Positions 18,928 through 37,443 of a DNA stretch of 44,947 nt are shown in pieces. Both the position numbers and the translations under genes were made by a program. The stretch's first letter is position 1, and each line of letters opens with the position of its first letter. The notes below the pieces were generated by a model. The model searched no databases. It had not been told where the DNA came from and was given only the letters and a program-made list of their open reading frames with translations. The DNA is from Treponemataceae bacterium (GTDB lineage Bacteria > Spirochaetota > Spirochaetia > Treponematales > Treponemataceae). The stretch covers positions 1-44,947 of the forward strand of contig JAKSTR010000015.1 of assembly GCA_024402495.1 (NCBI GenBank), in the 5' to 3' direction.

Positions 18928-21900
18928 TTACGCATTGTCCGTCAATCTGGCAATTTCATCGTAGTCGTAAACGCTGGTGGCGCTTGCAATTTTTTCCAGC
19001 AGCTTCTGGTTTTGTTCTGACCACGCGTATTTTTGCAGTTCTTCAACTATTGCTTGTACGGTTAAAATGTCAAAGTTTTCGGCAAAAGTGCGTATTTCGT
19101 TAAGTTTATGGTCAAAATACTGATTGTTTCCGGCCTGTTTGCCGTCGTTCTGGACATTCTGCGCGCTGTTTGCACCGTAAACAATATTTGCCGTAAGGGC
19201 GCTGGTTTCAAAATATTCGTTTATGTTCTTAACGATTTCTTCAACAATTTCAAAACAGGTTTCGGCATTTTCCTTTACATATTCGCTGTTGCCCGCAGCC
19301 CCGGCTTTTTCCAGTTTTTCTGCAAGGTTTGCCGCATATTCTGCGCCAATTGAACGCGATGCGCTTTTTAATGCGTGAACGTGAACCGTAAACTGGTGCA
19401 AATCCTGTTTTTGCAGCGCGTCGCTTAAAAGTTCAATTTTGGAATTGGCGTCAACCACGTAGCTTGAAAGAATGTCAAGATAATTGGTCAGGTTGCTGCC
19501 GGCGTATTCAACACCCAAAGCCGTATTAACTCCCGGTATTACAATAACTTGCCGTACATTTTCCACATTTTCGGTATTTACGGAATGCGAATCTTCGATT
19601 TTGTCTTCCGGTACCCAGCGCGCCAAAAGCGTATTTAAAGCGCTGTTTTCAATCGGTTTGGACAAAAAGTCGTCAAACCCTTCGTCCAAAAACTTTTCTT
19701 TCATGCCGTTAATTGCGTTGGCGGTAAGGGCAATGATTCTGCTTTTGGCATTTTTGTTCTGCATTTTGCGGATTTCATGCGCCGCTTCAATTCCGTCCAT
19801 TTCCGGCATAAGGTGATCCATGAAAATCATGTCAAAGTTCTGGTTTTTAAGAATTTCAATGGCGTCAAAACCGCTGTTTGCCGTTTCGGCTTTTACACCG
19901 TGAATTTCCAGCAGCCCGGTAGCAACTTTAAGGTTTACGATATTGTCGTCTACAACCAGCACTTTCAAGTCAGGCGAATAAATCTGTTCCATCGAATCGA
20001 ATGAAACATTTTCGTGTTTGAAACTCGGCTTTTCGTTCAGCAAATTTGCCAGCGGAACGCAGTAAAGCGGCGTTTTAAGCATTTTTACGTCTTTATTTTG
20101 CGCAAAATCGTATTCTGAATCCGCCAGAAGCGCCAGCTTTACGTTTTTGTCGCTGCTGTGAATGGTTGCCTTAACCTTGTTAAAATACTGCGAAGAACAG
20201 AAAACCCAGTCGAATTTTTTATTTTTCTTCAAAATTTCAGCAAGTTCGGTGTAAGTGCTGCAAAGCTCGGGCTGAATGCCCAAATCGCTTAGCAGAATTG
20301 CCAGAAACCGGCGGTTGCGGCGGCGCGGTTCAAAAATTATTACGGATTTTGAACGCAGGTTGTCGGTTTTTACCAGCGGCTGGTGGTTTTTAATTTTCTG
20401 GTGCAACTGCAGGGTGAATGTTGAACCGTTACCGTATTCGCTTGAAAAATCCAGTGAGCCGTCCATAAGTTCGCAAAGCTGCTTGCAGATGGCAAGCCCA
20501 AGCCCGGTGCCTTCAATGTTGCGGTTGCGCTTTGTATCAAGGCGTTCAAACATTGTAAAAAGTTTCTGCTGGTCTTCGGCTTTTATGCCAATGCCGGTGT
20601 CCTGCACTTCAATTACAAGGTTCAGGTCGTTTTCTTCAACTACGCCTGAAATTGTCATGGTGATGCTGCCTTCTTTTGTGTATTTTATGGCGTTGGTCAG
20701 CAGGTTCAGCAGAATCTGCTTGATGCGCAGTTCATCGCCAATCAGTTCGCGCGGCAGGTCTGGGGTAATGCGTATTAAAAACGAAAGGAAAGTGTCGTGG
20801 GCACGTATGCGCGTCATGGAAATTACGTCGTGAATCATTGAATCGAAATTATATGGCGCGGTAACAAGTTCAAATTTGCCGCTTTCTATTTTAGAAAAAT
20901 CCAGAATGTCGTTGATGATACCCAAAAGGTTGCGGCTGGAATTGTTTATGTTCTGGGCGTAGTCGCGGATATGGGGCGCAAGGTTTTTGTCCATAAGGGT
21001 CAGTTCGCTCATGCCCAGAATTGCGTTCAGCGGCGTGCGGATTTCGTGGCTCATGTTTGCGAGGAAGGTGCTTTTTGCATTTGTGCCGGAAATTGCCGCA
21101 TCTTTTGCTTCTTTCAGCATCTGTTCAGATTCGTGCTCTAAAATCTTAAAGCAGATATTCGTAACGCAGGCGTTAAGGCTGTTTATGGTCTGTGGATCCG
21201 GCATGGTTTCGTGCTTGGTGTTGTCAAAACAGGCAAAGCCCCAGATGCCGCTGCCGTTTTTTATGGGCAGAAGCAGGCGGCACATTACGCCGCCGGAAGC
21301 CAGCTGGTATTTTATCAGCCCCGAACTTTGGCTTTGGCAGATTACTACCGGCTCCGGGTTTTTGAAAATTTTGTTCCAGTCGGGGAAGAATGTATCAAGG
21401 TTCAGGTTAAAGTCAAAGCGCGACATTTTTTCATCGGTGCTGTTGTCTTCCCATTTGCATACAAGGTTGCATTGCGGTATCAGGTTCGGCGTATCCAGAG
21501 AAACATTCCAGATTGAAGCTTTGTTCATCTGGCACTGTTTTGCAATAAACTCAAGGCTGTTGCTCAGGCGGTTGTAAAAGTTCTGGCTAAGGTCCTGGCT
21601 TGCAATATTTTTGCATGAACTGAATATCAAGTTGAATTTCTGATTGTTTTCTTCTATTAAATTCTTTTGAATTTTCAGCTGTTCTTTAAGGCTGCGCTGG
21701 TGCAGGCGCGTGTTGATGCTGAAAACCATGGAACTTAGCGCAAGAAAGCAGATGAAGGCGATTATGATTGCCTTGAAATATCCCGTGTACACAAAAGACT
21801 GCGGCTTGCCGATGAATACGCCGTCTGTAAATTTTTTGTTGCCGCTGCTTATTACAAAATAGCGGCGCACGGTTGAGTGGTTGTAGAGGTAACGGCTGAA

Positions 21901-23388
21901 AAGCGGATTTTCAATTGCAGTGCAGGCTGCCGGGAACGGTGTGCCGCACAAAACATTGTTTACAAGATTTTCCAGCCGTTCAAAATAATAATCGTTGTCG
22001 CAGTAGCTGCCGCCAACGGCGTATCTGAAATAACTGTCATATTTCAGGCTGAAAACAGGCACCTTGCATTCTTCAAGTGAACTTGTCAGCTGCAGGTTGC
22101 CCATATTGCCGATTAAAACTGCGGAATGATTTTCAAGCGAACGCATGAAGCGCGGCAAAAGTTCGGTTTTGATGCTGTCGCTGTAAACGATTGTCAAATC
22201 TTCAAAATTCTGGTCAAGCTGTTTCTGTATTTCGGTTTTCCACGCTCTTCCGGCGCTGTCGTTAGAGTTTATTACCAGAATGTTTTTGGTTTTAGGGAAA
22301 ACTTCGAGGATTTTCTGTACGGTTTGCCGTGCGCCGATAGGTTTTTGCAGTATAAAAGAATAGTTTGGCGGTATTGTCTGCATGAAATCTTCGGCAGAAA
22401 TCAGTTCGCCCGAAATTACTACCGGAATATTTGCAAAAAGTATGCGGTAATTGCTGCACAGAAAGTCGGCGGCGCTTTGTCCGTCGCTGATGATTATTTG
22501 CGGCATCTGGGTTGCAAAAACGCTGTGCAGCGCAGAAAGTGCCTGATTGTTAATCAGCGCCTGCCCGGTTTTGTGAATGTCTTTTGGTATGTTTACAAAA
22601 TTCACTTCGCAGTTGAATTTTTGCAGGTGCGTTTTCTGGCTGTTGCTTTCCTGCGTGTTTGCGTCGTAGGAACTTAAAAATAAAACGCCGCCGTCGTTGT
22701 TTCCGCCTGTTTTATAGTTCAAAATATCGCTGTAAAGACCTTCGGCTTTTAGTGCGTTCAGTTCCTGAGAAAATTTGTGGGCAAGCCCTGCGCGGTCTTT
22801 TGAAAAATACAGGTATATCTGAAGAAGCGGACAGAATCCCGCCGGCTGTACGTCCAGCGGCAGAGGCTTGCGTTTTTTTCCGTCAATGTAAGAAATTACG
22901 CCGTAATCGCATTTGTTCTGGCGGAATGTTTCAAAAAGTTCTTCTTCGTTTGCAACTTCGTATTTTACGGTGCCGGCATCTTTGCCCTGTTCAAGATTTT
23001 TTTCGGTGTAAAAATCGTTGTGCAGATATGCTACGCGTTTGCCGCTTAAACCCTGCCAGCCTTCAACTTTTGCGGCGCCTTTTGGGGCAACAATTGCATA
23101 GATTATGTTTGCAACGGGTTCAATTGCCTTTATGCCGTTTTGCGGTGCAGAATCAATTGAAAAATACAAAACCGCGTCCGCAAGTCCTTCCTGCAAATAA
23201 AGCGGCACAATCTGGGTGTTGTTTACGGTAAAAGTTGAATCTACGCCGCAGCGGTTAAGTACCTGCGCGGTTATTCGGCTTGCATCCAGCGGACTTGTTT
23301 CGGGGATGGCAACGTTGCACACGGTTTGCTGTGCCATAGCTGAAAATGCGGCTAAAGTTAAAACGGCGATTGCAAGCAGTTTTTTCAT
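18928..23388 (-). CDS. Giant hybrid sensor histidine kinase with two periplasmic binding domains
   Basis: 1486 residues with a full phosphorelay. It starts with a signal peptide (1-19). Residues about 22-225 form a solute-binding-type domain. Residues about 233-520 form a second domain like the ABC-substrate-binding/LuxQ-type sensor, and a membrane helix lies at about 537-557. A GAF-like domain (about 600-750) is followed by HisKA with His781 in NMSHEIRTPLN. HATPase boxes are DTGIGI and GTGLGL. A degenerate receiver-like segment (1014-1120) lacks the acidic pocket. A true receiver has VDD and phospho-acceptor Asp1191, and an Hpt domain has His1338 in HALKSAS. The ATG at 23388 has AAGGAC upstream. 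The receiver gene 101 nt upstream is probably in the same operon. The ligand is unknown. Confidence 0.93.
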   Translation of the reverse strand: MKKLLAIAVLTLAAFSAMAQQTVCNVAIPETSPLDASRITAQVLNRCGVDSTFTVNNTQIVPLYLQEGLADAVLYFSIDSAPQNGIKAIEPVANIIYAIVAPKGAAKVEGWQGLSGKRVAYLHNDFYTEKNLEQGKDAGTVKYEVANEEELFETFRQNKCDYGVISYIDGKKRKPLPLDVQPAGFCPLLQIYLYFSKDRAGLAHKFSQELNALKAEGLYSDILNYKTGGNNDGGVLFLSSYDANTQESNSQKTHLQKFNCEVNFVNIPKDIHKTGQALINNQALSALHSVFATQMPQIIISDGQSAADFLCSNYRILFANIPVVISGELISAEDFMQTIPPNYSFILQKPIGARQTVQKILEVFPKTKNILVINSNDSAGRAWKTEIQKQLDQNFEDLTIVYSDSIKTELLPRFMRSLENHSAVLIGNMGNLQLTSSLEECKVPVFSLKYDSYFRYAVGGSYCDNDYYFERLENLVNNVLCGTPFPAACTAIENPLFSRYLYNHSTVRRYFVISSGNKKFTDGVFIGKPQSFVYTGYFKAIIIAFICFLALSSMVFSINTRLHQRSLKEQLKIQKNLIEENNQKFNLIFSSCKNIASQDLSQNFYNRLSNSLEFIAKQCQMNKASIWNVSLDTPNLIPQCNLVCKWEDNSTDEKMSRFDFNLNLDTFFPDWNKIFKNPEPVVICQSQSSGLIKYQLASGGVMCRLLLPIKNGSGIWGFACFDNTKHETMPDPQTINSLNACVTNICFKILEHESEQMLKEAKDAAISGTNAKSTFLANMSHEIRTPLNAILGMSELTLMDKNLAPHIRDYAQNINNSSRNLLGIINDILDFSKIESGKFELVTAPYNFDSMIHDVISMTRIRAHDTFLSFLIRITPDLPRELIGDELRIKQILLNLLTNAIKYTKEGSITMTISGVVEENDLNLVIEVQDTGIGIKAEDQQKLFTMFERLDTKRNRNIEGTGLGLAICKQLCELMDGSLDFSSEYGNGSTFTLQLHQKIKNHQPLVKTDNLRSKSVIIFEPRRRNRRFLAILLSDLGIQPELCSTYTELAEILKKNKKFDWVFCSSQYFNKVKATIHSSDKNVKLALLADSEYDFAQNKDVKMLKTPLYCVPLANLLNEKPSFKHENVSFDSMEQIYSPDLKVLVVDDNIVNLKVATGLLEIHGVKAETANSGFDAIEILKNQNFDMIFMDHLMPEMDGIEAAHEIRKMQNKNAKSRIIALTANAINGMKEKFLDEGFDDFLSKPIENSALNTLLARWVPEDKIEDSHSVNTENVENVRQVIVIPGVNTALGVEYAGSNLTNYLDILSSYVVDANSKIELLSDALQKQDLHQFTVHVHALKSASRSIGAEYAANLAEKLEKAGAAGNSEYVKENAETCFEIVEEIVKNINEYFETSALTANIVYGANSAQNVQNDGKQAGNNQYFDHKLNEIRTFAENFDILTVQAIVEELQKYAWSEQNQKLLEKIASATSVYDYDEIARLTDNA

Positions 23389-23489: not shown

Positions 23490-23852
23490 TTAATCTTTCA
23501 AATGTTTTTCAATTCGTTCCGGCAAAAGGGCTGCGTCAAAAGGTTTTATGATATAGTCCAGAACGCCCTGTTCAAAACCGGCGGTAACAACCTGCTGTTC
23601 CGTATGTGAAGTTAAAAAAATAACCGGAATTGACTGCCAGCCGCTTACGGTTTTAAGCTGCTTCATAACGTCAAGTCCGTTCATGTCCGGCATTTCAATG
23701 TCCAGAAGAATAAGGTCCGGTATGCGGCGGTTTAGTGCCATAAAAAGCTGCTTGCCGGATGTAAGCAAGGTAAGCTGGTAATGTTCTTTTAGCGCCCGTT
23801 CTGCGAGTTTTAAGGTTGTAATGCTGTCGTCAACAACAAAAATATTTTTCAT
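23490..23852 (-). CDS. Single-domain response regulator
   Basis: 120 residues consisting only of a receiver domain. It has the acidic pair VVDDS near residues 7-9, phospho-acceptor Asp51 in LILLDIEMPDMNG, Thr in FLTSH and Lys in IIKPF. With no output domain it probably shuttles phosphate or acts by protein binding, as CheY-like or Spo0F-like proteins do. AGGAG supports the ATG at 23852. It precedes the hybrid kinase on the same strand, and the 101-nt gap shows no terminator, so the two are likely one operon and may form a single pathway. Confidence 0.93.
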   Translation of the reverse strand: MKNIFVVDDSITTLKLAERALKEHYQLTLLTSGKQLFMALNRRIPDLILLDIEMPDMNGLDVMKQLKTVSGWQSIPVIFLTSHTEQQVVTAGFEQGVLDYIIKPFDAALLPERIEKHLKD

Positions 23853-24330: not shown

Positions 24331-25062
24331 ATGAAGAAGATTTTAGGAATCTGTACTCTTTTGGCTTGCTGTGCCGGCATTTTTGCAATTGACGGAACAG
24401 CAATGGCGGTTTCAGGCAAGGTCGAAATTCAAAGACCAGATGGCGATTGGGTAGAATTGAAAAAGGGTGATGCCATTCCTGAAGGTTCAACAATTTCTAC
24501 CGGCTTTAAATCACAGGCGGACGTAAAACTTGGTGGTTCTACATTAACCGTGCACCAGCTTACGCGCGTTACATTGCGCGAACTTGCTGAAGGCGAAAAC
24601 AAAGTTACCACCGATTTGTTCCTTGACGCTGGCGCACTTGATGCCAACGTAAAACCATTGAACAACAAAGCAAACGGTTTCCAGATTCAGACGCCGGTTG
24701 TTACTTCTTCTGTTCGCGGTACGGTTTTTTCTGTAGACGGCTTGGGTAACGAATCTACAACCGAAGGTTCTGTTTATAACGAAAACGCAATTGGCGGCGC
24801 ATTTACTGCAAACGCAGGCGAATCTGTTTCTGTAGAAGACGGCGTAATTGTCAGCCCGTTTGGCAAAGGCAGCGAAAACGTAACCGTAACCAGTGCAATT
24901 ACAGACCCGGCTTCAAAGTCTGCTTCGCCACTGCTTCTTAGCAGCGGTTCACTTGGTGACAGCTACGGTGCATCTCCAACTACCGGTTTTGTAGACATCA
25001 GCCAGGAAGCAATTTTTGAAACAACCGGCATTGCGCCAAATGTAAAGGTTAGTTTTGAATGA
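24331..25062 (+). CDS. Exported FecR-domain protein, paralogue 1
   Basis: 243 residues. The N-terminus is a short signal peptide; LLACC could also be read as a loose lipobox, so a lipoprotein is possible. Residues about 25-150 form a FecR domain: VSGKVEIQRPDGDWVELKKGD, ISTGFKSQADVKLGG, then VVTSSVRGTVFSV. Stand-alone FecR domains of this kind occur in secreted or envelope proteins; in the FecIR system the domain senses signals in the periplasm. No sigma factor or TonB receptor is nearby, so the classic FecIR role is unlikely. GAGGAG supports the ATG. The Ser/Thr-rich C-terminal part is of unknown function. A strong terminator follows. Confidence 0.85.
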   Translation: MKKILGICTLLACCAGIFAIDGTAMAVSGKVEIQRPDGDWVELKKGDAIPEGSTISTGFKSQADVKLGGSTLTVHQLTRVTLRELAEGENKVTTDLFLDAGALDANVKPLNNKANGFQIQTPVVTSSVRGTVFSVDGLGNESTTEGSVYNENAIGGAFTANAGESVSVEDGVIVSPFGKGSENVTVTSAITDPASKSASPLLLSSGSLGDSYGASPTTGFVDISQEAIFETTGIAPNVKVSFE

Positions 25063-25329: not shown

Positions 25330-26154
25330 ATGAAGAAGATTTTAGTATTCTGCATTCTTTTTGTATGCTGCGCCGCCGTTTTTGCAATTGACGGTACGGT
25401 AATTGCTGTTTCTGGAAAGGTTGAGATTCAGCGCCCAAACGGCGACTGGGCGGAACTGAAAGAAGGCGATACGATACCGGAAGGTTCAATAATTTCTACC
25501 GGATTTAAGTCGCAGGCAGACGTAAAACTTGGCGGCTCTAAATTAACCGTTCACCAGCTTACACGCGTAACCCTGCGCGAACTTACTGAAGGCGAAAATA
25601 AAGTTACCACCGATTTGTTTTTGGACGCTGGTGCGCTTGATGCCAACGTCAAGCCGCTGAACAATAAGGCAAATGGTTTTCAGATTCAGACGCCGGTTGT
25701 TACTTCTTCTGTTCGCGGTACGGTTTTTTCCGTAGACGGCTTGGGCAACGAAACCACAGCCGAAGGTTCGGTTTACAACGTGAACGCAATGGGCGGTTCT
25801 TTTACTGTAAATGCCGGAGAATCTGTTTTTGTGGAAGACGGCGTAATTGTCAGCCCGTTTGCAAAAACCAGCCAGAATGCAAGCGTAAATTCTTTAATTG
25901 CAGACCCGGCTTCAAAATCCAGTTCGCCTTTGGTACTTAGCAGCGGTTTTTGGGGTAAAAATTATGCCGCAAGCCCTGCCGTTGGTTTTGTTGATGTAAG
26001 CCATCAGGCAATTATTGAAACTACGGAGATTAACCCGGTAATTGAACCTGCGGCAAGTGCACCGGTTGTAAACACGGTTACAAACGTAAACCAGAATACT
26101 GGTATAAATACTGGTGGCGGTAACCAGACTATTATTCCGGGTAATGATCCCTGA
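25330..26154 (+). CDS. Exported FecR-domain protein, paralogue 2
   Basis: 274 residues, closely related to the gene at 24331 over the signal peptide and FecR domain. The stretch from LFLDAGALDANVKPL through SVDGLGNE is almost identical. The C-terminus differs: it ends in a Pro/Ala- then Asn/Gly-rich tail (NTGINTGGGNQ). AAGGAG supports the ATG at 25330. Its own promoter and terminator make it a separate unit. The pair arose by tandem duplication, and a 50-bp identical block suggests later gene conversion. Role unknown; an envelope-surface function is inferred from the signal peptide. Confidence 0.85.
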   Translation: MKKILVFCILFVCCAAVFAIDGTVIAVSGKVEIQRPNGDWAELKEGDTIPEGSIISTGFKSQADVKLGGSKLTVHQLTRVTLRELTEGENKVTTDLFLDAGALDANVKPLNNKANGFQIQTPVVTSSVRGTVFSVDGLGNETTAEGSVYNVNAMGGSFTVNAGESVFVEDGVIVSPFAKTSQNASVNSLIADPASKSSSPLVLSSGFWGKNYAASPAVGFVDVSHQAIIETTEINPVIEPAASAPVVNTVTNVNQNTGINTGGGNQTIIPGNDP

Positions 26155-26203: not shown

Positions 26204-26273
26204 TTCTTCTTTAAATTACGTGTAAAAAAGCCTATTGCTTGCCTATTCTTTAAGCTGTTGGTATCATAAAAGA

Positions 26274-29200
26274 ATGAGTGAATTTGACAAACGGATGAGT
26301 ACATATAAAAAAATTGCAGGTTTTATGCCTGAAAAAATCTCGTCAGATGAAGTTGCCAAAAATAATGCGGCGGTAGAAGCCATTACCAAAGACCAGACCG
26401 ATGCGGCGATTGCTGTTTTAAGCGGAAAAAATGCGCCGCAGGAAGAAAAGCCCCAGAATCAGGATTTTAAGCCGTTTTCTTTTGAAAACGCACCCGTATA
26501 TAAATCGTTAAATCAAGAAGAAAATTCAGAAGAAGATAATAGAAGAGAACAAAACCGGCAGCCGGAAAATTTTGCCCAAAATAACCAGAACCGGCAAGGC
26601 GAACAGACACAGCCCAAAAATGCTTCGCCGCTGATTCCTTCAATACCGAAGCCGCCGGTAAACAGTTTGGGCGGCACAGCAGAACCAAATGGTACAGGCG
26701 GCGCAAATAATTTTGCAGAAAATTTTAACAGAAACAATATTCCGGGCGCGCAAAATTTTCAGCCAGCCCAAAATGAAAGACCAGCGCAAGCCGAAAGCTA
26801 TGAAGCCGGACGCGAAGCTGGCAATTTTGGCAGTTTTGGTAACGGCGGCAATTCTGCTGAACCGAATAATTTTTCAAATTACCAGAATTACCAGAATATG
26901 CCGGGAGCAGTGCCGCCAAACGGTGCAAACAGCGCCCAGCCAGCGCCCGTACCGTATCAGCCGGTGCCTTACCAGCCGGAAAACGGCGCGCAAAACAACC
27001 AGAATTACAGCCCTGTGCCTTATGTAGACCCGAATGCAGAAAACAGCCGGTTTGAATCGCCCCGGCAGAATGTTTCAGATTTTTCAAATATTTCTAACAG
27101 CCGCAATTTGCAGCCGGAACGGAACAGCCAGCCTGCCGCCGCGCCTTTTATGCCTTCAATACCGAAGCCGCCGGTAAACAGTTTTGGCGGTACAGCAGAA
27201 CCAAACGGTACAGGCGGCGCAAATAATTTTGCAGAAAATTTTAACAGAAACAATATTCCGGGCGCGCAAAATTTTCAGCCAGCCCAAAATGAAAGACCAG
27301 CGCAAGCCGAAAGCTATGAAGCCGGACGCGAAGCTGGCAATTTTGGCAGTTTTGGTAACGGCGGCAATTCTGCTGAACCGAATAATTTTTCAAATTACCA
27401 GAATTACCAGAATATGCCGGGAGCAGTGCCGCCAAACGGTGCAAACAGCGCCCAGCCAGCGCCCGTACCGTATCAGCCGGTGCCTTACCAGCCGGAAAAC
27501 GGCGCGCAAAACAACCAGAATTACAGCCCGGTGCCATATTCTGCCCAAAATACAGAAAACGGCGCCAGCGCGCAAAGTTTTTCAAATTATCAAGAGCAGG
27601 CACAGGCTTTGCAAAATCAGGGCGCGCAGGCTTTTGCCAATTTGCGTTCGGCAGTAGACGAAAATTACAAAATTACGCTGCAAAATGTTGTACAAAACCA
27701 GCAGCCGCCAAAGCCGGAGCCGCAAGCCCAGCCGGAGATTAAGCCCGGTGCAAATCCTGTACCGTACAAAGCTGTTCCTTATATGGCAAGCAGCCCAAAC
27801 GGCGAATTGCCGCGCTATCAGGCGGACGTCGATGAACCGGCGCAAAAACCAGACCGCCAGCCGGAACAGCGGCAAAATTATTCAGGCAGCCAGAATGTGC
27901 GGAATAATGTTCAGCAGGCGCAAAATGCCGCGCCAAAAAAAGGTTTCTGGCAGAAACTGCAGGATGCTTTTTCTGCGCCGGATACAGAACCCCGCGCGCC
28001 TAATTTGAACGAGCCGGTTAATTTGCGCGCGCCGGAGAACGCCAGCAAATTTAATCAGAATTATGCAGCCCAGACTTTGCGCAATATGCAAAATCCGGCG
28101 CAAAAAGAACAGACTGCGGCGCAGAACCAGAAGGAATGGGCAGATTTAAGCCGTCAGTTTGCGCAAAATCAGCAGAATCAGCAGAATTATTCTCAAATAA
28201 AGAACGCGCGTTCTTCAGTTGGTGAATCTGCGCGGGAAATTATACCGCCGAAAGATTTGGAAGGCACTCAGTTTGACTTTTCCGCCTTTGCTGCAAAGCA
28301 AAGCGGCTCTGCATTTGAAGCCAAAAAGTTTTCGGCACAGCCTTTAGAGGCTTTTTATTTGAAAAAACAGGTTCAGGATAACGCGGAAAAAGCCAGAAAT
28401 ACCGTAAACATTCCCGGCATAAAAACACCCGACGGCGGTTTTGCAAAAAGCGACAATATTTTTTATAAAATTCCAGCCGGAGCAAAAGACAGCAACGCCC
28501 GGCGTGTTGCAAAATTCCTTCTGCTGATTGGAACGGACGAAGCGGCAAAAATTATTGCCCAGCTGCCCCAGGATCAGGTTGAAAAAATCGTTCCCGAAAT
28601 CGCTTCCATCCGCCGGGTTGATCCGGAAGAAAAAGCCCAGATTCTTGCCGAATTTCAGGGGCTGATGGCGAAAGCCAGAGAAAGCGGCGGCGTAACCACA
28701 GCCCGGACGATTCTGGAAAAAGCTTTTGGCGACCAGCAGGCGCAGGATATTATGCAGCGCGCCGTGCCTTACGACGGCGGAAAACCTTTCGATTATCTGC
28801 AAAAGTTTGACGGCGAACAGCTTACGCTTATTTTAAAAGACGAATCCGTGCCGGTAAAGGCGCTGGTTTTAAGTCAGGTAAAACCGGCTGTAGCGGCGGC
28901 GGTAATAAACCAGATGAACGAAAAGGAACGTAAGGAAACTGTTCTGCGCCTTTCGCGCCTGACAAAATTTTCGCCGGATATTTTAAGCCGCATAGACCGC
29001 ACTTTGCGCGAAAAAGCTGAAAATGTAAAAACTCCGGCTTCAAATTCAATTGACGGCCGCGGTGCGCTAGCTTCAATTTTGCGCAAAATGGACGCAAATT
29101 CTGAAAAGAACATTCTTTCCAATCTCAGTCTGGTTGACGGCGAGCTTGAAAGCGATTTGCGCAAGCGCCTGTTTACGATTGATGACGTTATTGCCGCCGA

Positions 29201-29468
29201 TGACAAATTCCTTCAGAAAAAGCTGCATGCCATGACCGATGACACGATTGCGATGATAATTCACGGCAAGCAGCCCGAATTCCGCAAGAAAATCCTCAAT
29301 AATATTTCAAAAACCCGCGGAATCAGCGTTTTGGAAGAAGAGGACGCACGCGCGCCGTATTCCAAAAAAGAGCTTGACCGCCTGACCAACGAATTTATGA
29401 CTATGCTGCGTGCCGCCTGGGAAAAAGGTGAGCTGATGATTAACAACGGCGACGAGGAATGGGTTTAA
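26274..29468 (+). CDS. FliG-like flagellar motor switch protein with long low-complexity N-terminus
   Basis: 1064 residues from the ATG at 26274; ATG 26295 is an alternative and neither has a strong Shine-Dalgarno sequence. Residues about 1-600 are rich in Asn, Gln, Pro and Ala and contain a 129-residue duplicated block. From about 740 a complete FliG core is seen. FliG-N begins RRVAKFLLLIGTDEAAKIIAQL; FliG-M includes ARTILEKAFG and ILKDESVPVKALVLSQV, without the usual EHPQ. FliG-C includes LFTIDDVIAADDKFLQKKL and FRKKILNNISKTRG. FliG normally sits on the cytoplasmic face of the MS ring and couples stator torque to rotation. Spirochaetes often have two FliG copies; this is likely the divergent one. 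Its stop overlaps the protease start (TAATG). Confidence 0.85.
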   Translation: MSEFDKRMSTYKKIAGFMPEKISSDEVAKNNAAVEAITKDQTDAAIAVLSGKNAPQEEKPQNQDFKPFSFENAPVYKSLNQEENSEEDNRREQNRQPENFAQNNQNRQGEQTQPKNASPLIPSIPKPPVNSLGGTAEPNGTGGANNFAENFNRNNIPGAQNFQPAQNERPAQAESYEAGREAGNFGSFGNGGNSAEPNNFSNYQNYQNMPGAVPPNGANSAQPAPVPYQPVPYQPENGAQNNQNYSPVPYVDPNAENSRFESPRQNVSDFSNISNSRNLQPERNSQPAAAPFMPSIPKPPVNSFGGTAEPNGTGGANNFAENFNRNNIPGAQNFQPAQNERPAQAESYEAGREAGNFGSFGNGGNSAEPNNFSNYQNYQNMPGAVPPNGANSAQPAPVPYQPVPYQPENGAQNNQNYSPVPYSAQNTENGASAQSFSNYQEQAQALQNQGAQAFANLRSAVDENYKITLQNVVQNQQPPKPEPQAQPEIKPGANPVPYKAVPYMASSPNGELPRYQADVDEPAQKPDRQPEQRQNYSGSQNVRNNVQQAQNAAPKKGFWQKLQDAFSAPDTEPRAPNLNEPVNLRAPENASKFNQNYAAQTLRNMQNPAQKEQTAAQNQKEWADLSRQFAQNQQNQQNYSQIKNARSSVGESAREIIPPKDLEGTQFDFSAFAAKQSGSAFEAKKFSAQPLEAFYLKKQVQDNAEKARNTVNIPGIKTPDGGFAKSDNIFYKIPAGAKDSNARRVAKFLLLIGTDEAAKIIAQLPQDQVEKIVPEIASIRRVDPEEKAQILAEFQGLMAKARESGGVTTARTILEKAFGDQQAQDIMQRAVPYDGGKPFDYLQKFDGEQLTLILKDESVPVKALVLSQVKPAVAAAVINQMNEKERKETVLRLSRLTKFSPDILSRIDRTLREKAENVKTPASNSIDGRGALASILRKMDANSEKNILSNLSLVDGELESDLRKRLFTIDDVIAADDKFLQKKLHAMTDDTIAMIIHGKQPEFRKKILNNISKTRGISVLEEEDARAPYSKKELDRLTNEFMTMLRAAWEKGELMINNGDEEWV
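26637..27022 (+). repeat. Duplicated block, copy 1, inside the FliG-like gene
   Basis: About 386 bp nearly identical to 27153-27538 at an offset of exactly 516 bp (172 codons, in frame). Differences are few, for example GGGCGGC versus TTGGCGGT near the start and a few bases at the end. Encodes a segment starting PSIPKPPVNS and ending NYSPVPY. Confidence 0.92.
27153..27538 (+). repeat. Duplicated block, copy 2, inside the FliG-like gene
   Basis: Second copy of 26637-27022. The protein sequence is identical over about 129 residues apart from Leu/Phe near the start. The high nucleotide identity shows a recent tandem duplication or gene conversion, and copy number could vary by recombination. 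Confidence 0.92.
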
Positions 29469-32400
29469 TGAGTTTAAAAATCAACGACGAACTTTATGGT
29501 TTTAAGGTTCTGGATATTTCGCCGGTAGAAGATTTGAACGGTACGGGTTTCTGGCTTGTTCATTTGCAGACCGGCATGCAGGTTTTTTATATTAACTGTG
29601 ACGACAGCGAAAACCTGTTCAATTTTGCTTTTTCTACGCCGTCGGCAGATTCTACGGGCGTTGCCCACGCAATTGAACATTCAGTTTTGTGCGGTTCTAA
29701 AAATTTTCCGCTTAAATCGCCTTTTTTGTGCCTTACCAAGCAAAGCATTACCACATTTTTAAATGCGCTTACTTCTTCTGATACAACCATGTACCCGGCA
29801 AGCAGCAGCGTTGAAGCCGATTATTTTAACGTAATGAAAGTTTACGGCGACGCTGTATTTTTTCCGCGGCTGGAAAAATGGACTTTTGAGCAGGAAGTGC
29901 GCCGTCTGGAAGTTGACGAAAACGGCGAAATTTCGGTGCAGGGCGTTGTTTATAACGAAATGAAGGGCGCTTACAACGATTTTAACCGCATTTATGTTAA
30001 GCAGCTTTCCAAAGCCTTTTTGTCGCCCACTTTTTATGCCGGCGATTCCGGCGGCGACCCGAAATCAATTCTTAAATTAACTTACGAAGATTATTTGAAG
30101 TTTTACAAAACTTACTACAAGCCTTCAAACTGCAAGATTGTGCTTTACGGAAATATTCCGCTGGAAAAACAGCTGGCGTTTATTGATGAAAATTTTGTAA
30201 GGCAGTTCGATTCTTCCCAGCTTGAACCTGCAAAAAACGCCGCCGGTTTTGCAGACGGCGCAAATAATGCGGTTGTCTGGGATTACTTGAGCGAGCTGAA
30301 AAAGTCTTCGCTTTTGGGCGGCGACAACCGGCCGTATAAAAATGCCCCAAAAGTGACCGACGGTAAAATTTTGCCAGCCGAACAGAACAGAGTGCGCAAT
30401 ATCGGTCAGTTTTTAACGCCGGCAGCCTGCGATATTGAAAAATTACACAAGCCCGAAAAATATGTTACGTTTATCGGCCCGGACACAAGCTGCACCAAGC
30501 CTTCCGTTGTCTGCAACTGGCTTATAGGCACACGCAGTCAGGGCCTGACGGCGTATTTTGAATCTTCAATTTTAAGCGAACTGCTGCTTGGTTTTGACGC
30601 TTCGCCCCTGCAAAAGGTTTTAACCCACTGCAAGCTTGGCAGCGGCATGGATATCGATAAAAGTTCCCTTATAAATTACCTGCCGTATACGCTTTTTTGC
30701 GTTGGTGTTGGCGAAGTTGACGAAAATGACCGCGATAAAGTTGAAAAACTGATTTGGGACACTTTGTATAAGGTTGCCGAAGAAGGTTTTGACGACGATC
30801 TGGTTGAAATGTGCCTTTTGGACAGCGATTTTGCAGCGCGTGAAGTAAGCGTTGGCGGTTCCAGTGCCCTTGGAATATCGAAAAGCCTTTTGTGGGGCTG
30901 GAACAATGGTTTTACGCCTTTCGATTTTTTGAACAGCGTTTCTGCCCTGGAAGAACTTAAAAACCGCATCCGCAGCGACAGAAATTATTTGAAAAATCTG
31001 GTGCGGAAGTGCCTTATAGAAAATCCTTATTATTCCTGCGTAACTTACGTACCCAGCCCCGATTTTAAGGCGCAGATTGAAGACGCTGAAAAAGCCTATA
31101 TCAATTCGTTTTTGCAGGGCAAAGACAAGAAGCAGAAAGAAGAGTTTCTGGCGCAGGTTAGGGCAGACCAGAAAAAACTGCACGATTTTCAGCAGCAGAA
31201 GGAAAGTGACGAACTTCTGGCGCTTATTCCGCATGTTAAGCCCGGCGATTTAAGCGCGGAAGAAGAAGATTTTGACGCAGACCACAAAAAGATTGGTAAT
31301 ATCGACGTTTTCAATTATAAAAGTTTTACCAACGGTTTGGTTTATTTTGATTTGCTTTTGCCATTTGACGTTCTGAATCTGGAAGAGTTGCAGTATGTGA
31401 TGGCACTGAGAAATGCCCTGGAATCTGCCGGTTACGGCGGCATTGACTGGGAATTTTCGTGCAAAAAGCGCTTTTTGTCCTGCGCCGATTTTTCCGTTTC
31501 TGTAAGGCGCGCCGAACAAAGCGATTTTTTAAGTGCCGAAGATATTGAAAGCAGGCGGAAAAAAGAACCGTGGTTTTGCCGCGATACGATTGGCTGGCAT
31601 ATTGAAACCACAAACGAAAAAATTGCCGAAGCTTTGGACTGTCTGTTTTTGAATGCGCTGCACCCGAATTATGGCGAGTTTAACCGCATTGAAGACACAT
31701 TTTTTACGAAAAAAAATCAGAAACTTGATAGTTTTGTTACTTCCGGACACAAACACGCGCTTGCAAGGTCTGAATCGTGTTTGAACAAACGCGCAGCCCG
31801 GCGCGAACTGCTTGCCGGCATAAGCCAGTATTTTAATATTTATGCCGAAGAAAAGGAACTTGATGTTTTTTGCCGCAGGCTGGAAGAAATTTACAAAAAA
31901 ATATTGAATGCCGGGGCTTCGGTATTTTTTGTAAGCGACGAAGCTGTAACTGATATAATTTACGACAAGATAAGCAAATATGCCGCTGATTTTAGCCAGA
32001 TGGCGATGCCTGAAGAAATAGCAGACGAATGCTGCTACGAATTCGTTAAAAAATCTTTGCCGCAGAAAAACATTACGGACGGCACGGAAGAATGCAGAAA
32101 TCTGGAATATTTTACGGCAAATATGCAGGTCGGTTTTTCTGCAAGTTCGCTTAACCTGAATTTTCTTACAAAAGAAAAAAACGTGGCGCTGGTTTGCCTT
32201 TTGCAGTGGTTTTCCGGCGGTTTTTTGTGGGAACGGATAAGAACCGTGGGCGGCGCTTATGGCTGCGGCTGCTATGGTCTTTTAAAATCCAGGTTTTTGT
32301 ATTTTTATACTTACCGCGACCCTACGCCGTTGCAGTCGCTGCAAGTGTACAAAAGCGCGTTAAAGGAACTTGCCGGCGTTAAGTTTGACGTTGATACGGT

Positions 32401-32677
32401 TCACCGCTGCATTGCGTCGTTTTATTCCAATTTTACCGGCACGCTTTCCGTCAGCAATAAGGGCGGGCGGGCAGCGCGCAAGGTATTTTACGGCAGCGAC
32501 CCGAAGGAATATGAAGCTTCAAAACGCATTCTGCTTGGTTTAACGCCGGCAGATTTTGAAGAAATGGCTGTAAAGCTGGCAGATTATGTTGAAAAACACC
32601 TTGAAGATTTTTCTGATGTAATTATTTCTGCAAAAAATGATAATTTTAGTGGAAAAACTGTGCAGTTGGCATTATAA
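29468..32677 (+). CDS. M16C zinc metallopeptidase (presequence-protease/insulinase family)
   Basis: 1069 residues from the ATG at 29468, which overlaps the preceding stop in TAATG and has GAGGA upstream. It hydrolyses peptides inside a closed chamber made by two homologous halves. The inverted zinc motif is H67-A-I-E-H71, and the third ligand is probably the Glu in GVVYNEMKGAY near residue 160. The flanking VAHAIEHSVLCGS, FPLKSPF and TMYPASS are typical of the M16C group that includes mitochondrial PreP. Length near 1000 also fits M16C. There is no signal peptide, so it is probably cytoplasmic and degrades free peptides. The coupling to a FliG-like gene is unusual and may be chance. Confidence 0.93.
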   Translation: MSLKINDELYGFKVLDISPVEDLNGTGFWLVHLQTGMQVFYINCDDSENLFNFAFSTPSADSTGVAHAIEHSVLCGSKNFPLKSPFLCLTKQSITTFLNALTSSDTTMYPASSSVEADYFNVMKVYGDAVFFPRLEKWTFEQEVRRLEVDENGEISVQGVVYNEMKGAYNDFNRIYVKQLSKAFLSPTFYAGDSGGDPKSILKLTYEDYLKFYKTYYKPSNCKIVLYGNIPLEKQLAFIDENFVRQFDSSQLEPAKNAAGFADGANNAVVWDYLSELKKSSLLGGDNRPYKNAPKVTDGKILPAEQNRVRNIGQFLTPAACDIEKLHKPEKYVTFIGPDTSCTKPSVVCNWLIGTRSQGLTAYFESSILSELLLGFDASPLQKVLTHCKLGSGMDIDKSSLINYLPYTLFCVGVGEVDENDRDKVEKLIWDTLYKVAEEGFDDDLVEMCLLDSDFAAREVSVGGSSALGISKSLLWGWNNGFTPFDFLNSVSALEELKNRIRSDRNYLKNLVRKCLIENPYYSCVTYVPSPDFKAQIEDAEKAYINSFLQGKDKKQKEEFLAQVRADQKKLHDFQQQKESDELLALIPHVKPGDLSAEEEDFDADHKKIGNIDVFNYKSFTNGLVYFDLLLPFDVLNLEELQYVMALRNALESAGYGGIDWEFSCKKRFLSCADFSVSVRRAEQSDFLSAEDIESRRKKEPWFCRDTIGWHIETTNEKIAEALDCLFLNALHPNYGEFNRIEDTFFTKKNQKLDSFVTSGHKHALARSESCLNKRAARRELLAGISQYFNIYAEEKELDVFCRRLEEIYKKILNAGASVFFVSDEAVTDIIYDKISKYAADFSQMAMPEEIADECCYEFVKKSLPQKNITDGTEECRNLEYFTANMQVGFSASSLNLNFLTKEKNVALVCLLQWFSGGFLWERIRTVGGAYGCGCYGLLKSRFLYFYTYRDPTPLQSLQVYKSALKELAGVKFDVDTVHRCIASFYSNFTGTLSVSNKGGRAARKVFYGSDPKEYEASKRILLGLTPADFEEMAVKLADYVEKHLEDFSDVIISAKNDNFSGKTVQLAL

Positions 32678-32972: not shown

Positions 32973-34112
32973 ATGACCAATCCTAAGCGCTTTTTACGCC
33001 GCAACCTTTTCATGCTGAAAGGCCGTTACGCCCGGCGGGGTTACGACTGGTGGTGGCATAGTTTTACAGGTGTAAATGCTATTACCGGCGAAGAAAAAGC
33101 TTTTTTTATTGAATATTTTGCCATAAACCCGGGATTGTACCCTACGAAAGTTGTTTTAGGTCAGCGGTCTGATAACCAAACTTACGGTATCCGGCCTTCT
33201 TACGTAATGATTAAAGCCGGTGCCTGGGGCGAAGATGCTGTTCAGATTAACAATTTTTATCCTGCAAAAGAACTGGTTAACAAACGCAATAAACTGGATT
33301 TTCAAATCGGATCCTGCATTTTAAGCGAACACACAATTTCCGGGGCTGTAAGCGTTGATAAAGAAGAAGCATTGCGTTACCCCGAATGCATGACCGATGC
33401 CGGTTCAATGTCGTGGAACTTGCAGGTAAATAAAAAAATTCCTTATTGCGTCGGCTACGGTACAAGCTGGTTTTTCAGATTTTTCCACTTTTTCCAGATG
33501 TACTGGCATGCACAGGGCGTAAAAACTGAATATTCCGGCAAAGTAACCTTGAACGGCAGCGTTTATAACGTATTGCCGGAAAGCTGTTACGGTTATGCAG
33601 ACAAAAACTGGGGCGTCGACTTTACGAATCCATGGGTCTGGCTTTCCAGCTGCGATGTAACAAGCCTTATTACCGGCAAAAAATTAGAAAATTCTTGCTT
33701 TGAACTTGGTGGCGGTACGCCGCGTGTTCTGGGCATTCCTGTAAAAGGCAAGGTTTTAACCTATTTAAAGCTTGAAGACGAAGAATTTGAATTCAATTTT
33801 TCTAAGTTCTGGAAAAAATCTTCTACGCGCTATACCTTTTTTGACGAAGGCGACGAAGTACACTGGACGATTAGCACCCAGAACCGCAATTATCTGATTG
33901 ATATAAATGTTTTCTGCCATAAAAAAGACATGATTAAGGTAAAATACGAAAACCCTAACGGGCAGAAACTGCACGAAAATTTGTGGAACGGCGGAAACGG
34001 CCGCGGCGATATTAAGATTTTCAAGAAAATCGGTTCTAAAAACCTTGAAGTTTACGAACATCTTTCTATTGGGCACGTTGGCTGCGAATACGGCGAATAC
34101 GAAGAAAAATAG
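32973..34112 (+). CDS. Tocopherol-cyclase-family protein (lipocalin-like barrel)
   Basis: 379 residues. The pattern resembles the tocopherol cyclase family (Pfam Tocopherol_cycl): an N-terminal GYDWWWHSFTG, MSWNLQVNK in the middle, and the hallmark-like GYADKNWGVDFTNPWVWLSS near residues 208-227. In plants and cyanobacteria the family forms the chromanol ring of vitamin E. Bacterial relatives are widespread and mostly uncharacterised, and an anaerobic spirochaete would not be expected to make tocopherol. A role in binding or modifying a lipid is a guess. There is no signal peptide. GGAG lies 8 nt before the ATG. A strong terminator follows at 34132. Confidence 0.75.
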   Translation: MTNPKRFLRRNLFMLKGRYARRGYDWWWHSFTGVNAITGEEKAFFIEYFAINPGLYPTKVVLGQRSDNQTYGIRPSYVMIKAGAWGEDAVQINNFYPAKELVNKRNKLDFQIGSCILSEHTISGAVSVDKEEALRYPECMTDAGSMSWNLQVNKKIPYCVGYGTSWFFRFFHFFQMYWHAQGVKTEYSGKVTLNGSVYNVLPESCYGYADKNWGVDFTNPWVWLSSCDVTSLITGKKLENSCFELGGGTPRVLGIPVKGKVLTYLKLEDEEFEFNFSKFWKKSSTRYTFFDEGDEVHWTISTQNRNYLIDINVFCHKKDMIKVKYENPNGQKLHENLWNGGNGRGDIKIFKKIGSKNLEVYEHLSIGHVGCEYGEYEEK

Positions 34113-34131
34113 AAAATAATTGAAAAAGCAG

Positions 34132-34156
34132 AAACCCGGTACCCAACGCCGGGTTT
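34132..34156 (+). terminator. Intrinsic terminator after the tocopherol-cyclase-family gene
   Basis: 8-bp perfect stem AAACCCGG/CCGGGTTT, 9-nt loop, T-run. Confidence 0.9.
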
Positions 34157-34314
34157 TTTGTTTTTTCCGCCGTTTTTCAATCATTCGCAAGTGTACCATT
34201 TCCCGCATCCCACCATTTTTTCAAGCCGCTAAACCACCACACCTTTTCAATCATAAAAACTTCTTTACCCCTTCAACGTAAAACAGTTGAAAGCCAATTT
34301 TATAAACATTAGCA

Positions 34315-37143: not shown

Positions 37144-37443
37144 ATTAACAAATGTTAATTGAAGAAAGTAAAAATTCCGTTATTAACATTTGTTAATAGG
37201 CAAAAAGTGTTCTTTTTGAGCCGTTAACATTTGTGAATTGATAAAAAAGAATTCTTTTTGGGTCATTAACATTTGTGAATTGGTAAAAAAGAGTTCTTTT
37301 TGAGGCGTTAACATTTGTGAATTGGTAAAAAAGAATTCTTTTTGGGTTATTAACAAATGTTAATAGCCAAAAAAATGTCTTTTGGCGTTATTAACAAATG
37401 TTAATTGAACAAAAAAGAATTTTCGCCATTAACATTTGTTAAT
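37144..37443. repeat. Array of eight 16-bp palindromes at about 42-bp spacing
   Basis: Units begin at 37144, 37182, 37223, 37265, 37307, 37349, 37390 and 37428. The best units read ATTAAC-AAAT-GTTAAT or the reverse-complement form with ATTT. Units 3-5 have GTGAAT in the right arm. Start-to-start distances are 38, 41, 42, 42, 42, 41 and 38. The 22-26-nt linkers are themselves similar; the five central ones keep inner symmetry (AAAAAGAATTCTTTTT, CAAAAAG/CTTTTTG, GCCAAAA/TTTTGGC). It lies between convergent genes. Function unknown. Confidence 0.95.

Follow-up and report, generated by a model that had tools for sequence, protein, structure and literature searches.

The window analysed here, a stretch of 44,947 nucleotides from a Treponemataceae bacterium, carries a gene in which a FliG unit follows an N-terminal extension of about 736 residues. 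This raises the question of which kind of FliG the gene encodes and what such an extension may do for it.

FliG core of the window protein

The gene, its putative promoter and its domains were placed as follows:

26239 to 26267, forward strand: promoter-like site TTGCCT-17-TATCAT with TG before the -10 element, 7 bp 5' of the ATG (from a consensus scan)
26274 to 29468, forward strand: fliG1 gene, 1064 aa (Pfam, NCBIfam, relatives)
28494 to 28790, forward strand: FliG_N domain, aa 741-839 (PF14842, 5.4e-27)
28815 to 29033, forward strand: FliG_M domain, aa 848-920, with ESVPV in place of EHPQT (PF14841, 4e-22; residue table)
29121 to 29441, forward strand: FliG_C domain, aa 950-1056, with the acidic pair EE of the torque helix retained (PF01706, 2.7e-20; residue table)

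Translation probably begins at the ATG at 26274, since the start motif of related proteins aligns there and the promoter-like site lies directly 5' of it. An upstream TTG at 26235, giving 1077 aa, was also considered and found unsupported, as the relatives align from the ATG at 26274.

The preliminary description had recognised a complete FliG N-M-C unit at the C-terminus, and the HMM search bore this out, the three Pfam models matching in order and above their cut-offs within aa 741-1056. The NCBIfam equivalog model for fliG, TIGR00207, matched the core with an E-value of 2.5e-50, which makes the core a FliG beyond chance; the score of 171.7 bits stayed below the equivalog cut-off of 226.7 bits, as is expected of a paralogue.

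EHPQ is the motif by which FliG contacts FliM. Like the canonical FliG proteins (FliG2 of the same genome and those of Salmonella and Thermotoga), the window protein has the N-M-C order, the fold and the acidic pair of the torque helix. Unlike them, it has lost EHPQ, as already noticed in the preliminary description, and reads ESVP at this place, with DG for the GG hinge and LFTI for MFxF; its identity to the FliG2 of its own genome is 28%. These differences recur among its relatives. In the residue comparison, EHPQ and MFxF were found in none of 85 FliG1 but in all 14 FliG2 proteins, and the hinge, GG in 14/14 FliG2, was DG in nearly all 85 FliG1, including 73/73 of those from the family. Among the latter 73 proteins, only the E of EHPQ remains, MFxF is mostly LFTx, and K264 and R281 are mostly altered, with R sitting one place later, while the torque helix has E or D at position 288 in 68 and at position 289 in 56 (Salmonella numbering taken from the alignment). 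From the loss of EHPQ, GG and MFxF, together with the mostly retained acidic residues of the torque helix, we infer a subunit that could meet the stator without undergoing the usual FliM-driven switching. Devoid of EHPQ, FliG1 may even lie outside the C-ring altogether.

The structure prediction that had been proposed as a check was done with AlphaFold2 and gave an ordered core, with pLDDT values up to 95 in parts, and a mostly disordered extension, with pLDDT below 50 over most of its length. In the model of a short FliG1, the core was confident and the start motif and the second motif of the extension (see below) were helical at modest or low confidence. Against FliG chains of the PDB, this model, bent between domains, gave VIA Z 16.7 and rmsd 13.3 with 292 aligned, and its middle domain VIA Z 14.3 and rmsd 1.2 with 80 aligned, in a comparison that hardly covers the N-terminal part.

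A second FliG in Treponemataceae

The suggestion that the window encodes a second, divergent FliG proved right, as a canonical FliG2 of 353 aa (G000:C117) is encoded in the same genome as part of a fliF-fliG-fliH run that also includes the export ATPase gene and fliJ. The special motor that had been considered for it is unlikely, as this draft genome (202 contigs, 97% complete) yielded a single gene each for FliF and FliM. Between fliF and fliG of the canonical run lies a gene for a protein of 130 aa (L067:10372-10764) with a partial FliG_N match (4.5e-07).

At E <= 1e-60, FliG1 was detected in 136 of 145 Treponemataceae genomes; among the nine without a call, three had a match just above the limit, in one the gene was truncated at the edge of a contig, and the remaining five were 59-84% complete. 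Three genomes of the order without any FliG match were also without FliF, so that FliG1 goes with flagella. In the tree, all FliG2 proteins formed one clade (support 100/100) that excluded the window protein, and the latter grouped with the FliG1 of Treponemataceae (100/99). FliG1 of the Borrelia-like genomes, which bear this name by inferred assignment, fell on the window's side, but on a long branch with a weak backbone support of 81/82. Judged from sequence, the window gene is the spirochaetal paralogue FliG1, a kind known before, of which the extreme tether is the variant part; by the counts and the tree, FliG1 is more than an isolated oddity, being a paralogue of nearly every flagellated Treponemataceae genome and of Borrelia-like genomes.

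Other unusual FliG proteins were seen along the way. In another Spirochaetota family (f32; L157/G254, L183/G284), a second FliG keeps EHPQ in 2 of 4 cases and branches nearer to FliG2, so that it may stem from a separate duplication. A 647-aa protein with FliM, FliG_M and FliG_C domains (L068:3006-4946; G027:C11) represents a FliM-FliG fusion, and frames of 670-750 aa matching its FliG part occur in four further genomes of the order; the fusion was not found in the genome of the window.

The FliG1 of Borrelia burgdorferi was reportedly studied by Li et al. in 2010, the source of the summary given in a later review. According to this review (PMC7225975), fliG1 of B. burgdorferi is dispensable for filament synthesis, and FliG1 is asymmetrically localised and linked to torque. 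Like this protein, the window FliG1 is a second FliG beside a canonical FliG2 and has all three FliG domains. It also shares with the Borrelia-like FliG1 a short opening motif (MQDPRLxKYQxAKNLG in two such genomes), where the extension has about 73 residues; the tether of the window protein is ten times longer, rich in N, Q, P and A and internally duplicated, and the core identity is only about 30%.

The gene lies outside any flagellar operon, as the preliminary description had it, with FecR-domain genes on one side and an M16C/PreP peptidase gene on the other. The two FecR-domain proteins encoded 5' of fliG1 (24331-25062 and 25330-26154) are weakly similar to leptospiral Lsa33, and a related gene stands at this place in other members of the genus as well. 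Further upstream are a hybrid histidine kinase of 1486 aa with receiver and Hpt domains (18928-23388) and, beside it, a single-domain response regulator (23490-23852). Downstream, fliG1 and two genes run head to tail, with terminator-like sites on both sides of the unit, and clpB follows, after which a 42-bp tandem repeat of 5.7 copies occupies intergenic positions 37182-37421:

29459 to 32677, forward strand: preP-like gene for an M16C peptidase, sharing its first 10 bp with the end of fliG1 and linked to fliG1 family-wide (Pfam, synteny)
32973 to 34112, forward strand: third gene of the unit, function unassigned, with a weak Tocopherol_cycl match below the cut-off (Pfam, synteny)
34130 to 34158, forward strand: terminator-like hairpin after the unit and before clpB (from a consensus scan)

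The N-terminal tether

FliG1 proteins in general consist of a short helical start motif, (N)D-x-R-L-x-A-Y, a disordered tether and the core. In the window protein, the following parts of the tether were distinguished:

26274 to 26324, forward strand: motif 1, aa 1-17, MSEFDKRMSTYKKIAGF, a divergent copy of MNxNDxRLxAYKK, predicted helix (alignment, counts; AlphaFold2 helix 3-14)
26343 to 26414, forward strand: predicted helix, aa 24-47, conserved in the genus (alignment; AlphaFold2 pLDDT about 72)
26466 to 26516, forward strand: genus module, aa 65-81, FKPFSFENAPVYKSLNQ, resembling motif 2 (PVFEKVNRQVD), without a score in the motif search (alignment, motif search)
26640 to 27025, forward strand: copy 1 of a tandem duplication, with PVPYQPVPY and SPVPY motifs (repeat analysis)
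27156 to 27541, forward strand: copy 2, in frame at a spacing of 516 bp, matching copy 1 exactly over about 320 bp
28269 to 28349, forward strand: genus-conserved module, aa 666-692, QFDFSAFAAKQSGSAFEAKKFSAQPLE (alignment)
28455 to 28475, forward strand: NIFYKIP, aa 728-734, genus form of motif 3 (GLxKVP), directly before the core (alignment, family counts)

The extension had been described as repetitive and rich in Asn, Gln, Pro and Ala, in agreement with its composition (N 13.7, A 12.1, Q 11.0 and P 10.9%) and with the 516-bp tandem duplication. Outside the roughly 320 identical bp, the sequence has decayed between the two copies, and both should be real despite the draft assembly, since their outer flanks differ. 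As relatives in the genus carry two looser forms of the duplicated module (LPSI..PP..YKPVPY), the duplication may be of old origin and have been evened out recently.

Tethers span about 19 to 736 residues in the family and 162 to 736 in the genus, with the window FliG1 as the longest. Members of the family normally carry a disordered extension, which goes only halfway towards refuting the preliminary description: the length in the window protein is extreme, and extensions of just 162-167 residues occur in two species of the genus. The strict pattern of motif 1 was found in 52 of 73 non-redundant family FliG1 proteins, compared to a mean of 3.7 and a maximum of 11 after shuffling; the exceptions are mostly near-variants or proteins with a short arm, and among ten family proteins with an extension of at most 30 residues the strict pattern occurs in one. 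In the T. pallidum-like and g15 FliG1 (L155, L160, L161, L054), the extension has 19-23 residues, and motif 1 and the tether are lost while GLxK is kept. The tether is thus not essential to FliG1 as such, given that these proteins manage with so short an extension and no motif 1. Motif 2 recurs in many family tethers with a log-likelihood of 441 versus 189-224 for shuffled sequences, a value inflated by relatedness; the search of the window tether returned no scoring copy. The GLxKVP-type motif 3 precedes the core in 71/73 family proteins and has a variant form in the window. A DNA version of the strict motif 1 pattern, too strict for variants, matched only fliG1 starts across 40 genomes, and no partner protein sharing the motif came out of this search, which variants would escape.

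FliG1 of T. lecithinolyticum, T. socranskii and T. ruminis resembles the window protein in motif 1, the disordered tether and the fliG1-preP gene order, often also in a GLxKVP-type motif before the core; the tethers of these species are about 50-280 residues long and without the PVPY repeats of the window. The literature examined contained no description of such a tether, a weak sign that none has been published. The reading of the extension as a tether is well supported by the conserved motif at its N-terminal end, which disordered sequence separates from the core.

Proposed role of FliG1

On balance, we lean towards FliG1 being an accessory rotor subunit of the C-ring type, probably non-switching, that is recruited by its N-terminal motif over an expanded tether. 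It would join the one common MS-ring, on which FliG2 would be the principal FliG. Its core would meet the rotor or the stator ring and would be unable to respond to FliM-driven switching as an ordinary FliG does. Bringing FliG1 to a chosen place, or holding it there, would fall to the start motif on the tether, an asymmetric placement being described for Borrelia in the literature. In the genus, the tether would have grown through duplication and low-complexity expansion, and its extra length would either set reach and flexibility or be largely tolerated, with the anchoring motif as the part that counts. The motif, conserved across spirochaetes, probably fastens FliG1 at some site. Against the proposal speak the divergence of motif 1 in the window, the FliG1 proteins that have a very short extension and no motif 1, the possible place of FliG1 outside the C-ring, and the long branch and weak support (81/82) behind the orthology with the Borrelia FliG1.

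A serious rival, though one we consider rather less probable, accepts this FliG1 and regards the tether as a mostly neutral, permissive linker that lengthens and shortens by duplication and repeat slippage and whose length of 736 residues would serve no purpose by itself. The wide range of tether lengths within one family and one genus would fit such neutrality, as would the 320-bp identity of the duplication, which indicates recent growth or homogenisation, and the lack of conservation in the linker sequence between modules in the alignment. Several modules (FKPFSF..APV, QFDFxAFAA..KKF, PVPY) are however kept across the species of the genus, and motif 2 exceeds the shuffles at the family level, so that part of the tether appears to be under constraint.

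It is very unlikely that FliG1 has departed from the motor and now works elsewhere, perhaps together with the M16C/PreP peptidase encoded in its operon. The fliG1-preP adjacency, common across Treponemataceae and found also in T. pallidum-like and, loosely, in Borrelia-like genomes, would suit this idea, as would the absence of EHPQ. Against it, FliG1 occurred only alongside flagella in the genomes checked, the acidic residues of the torque helix are mostly retained, and the Borrelia FliG1 affects motility according to the review (PMC7225975). We give slightly less credit still to a Q/N/P-rich tether that forms a condensate or a polar scaffold gathering motor parts: 48% of its residues are N, Q, A or P, it contains 64 aromatic residues and recurring PVPY motifs, and it is predicted to be disordered, but the tethers of most FliG1 proteins are short and otherwise different. 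An assembly artefact or a wrong start, conceivable in a draft of 202 contigs with a 320-bp identical stretch in the duplication, is largely refuted, as relatives with extensions of 450-570 residues also have an open frame there and share the start motif and the modules, the flanks of the two copies differ on each side, and a single real copy would merely make the tether 172 residues shorter.

The opposite rotation of flagella at the two ends of a spirochaete is a long-standing question, and FliG1 is among the few proteins reported to be asymmetrically placed in the cell. A bolder version of the proposal, which we regard as a doubtful prospect, takes the motif for a docking signal for the motors of one pole that delivers a switch-locked FliG1, with a tether length tuned to the geometry of cell and motor. 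If true, this would explain at the molecular level why the two flagellar bundles rotate in opposite directions. Of the whole finding, the conservation of the start motif and the disappearance of the switch elements throughout the family most deserve testing. Since Treponema and Borrelia-like genomes share the motif and the family has lost three switch elements, the asymmetry of FliG1 may be addressed by deletion, and the extreme tether of the window FliG1 would serve as a measure of the length that the system tolerates.
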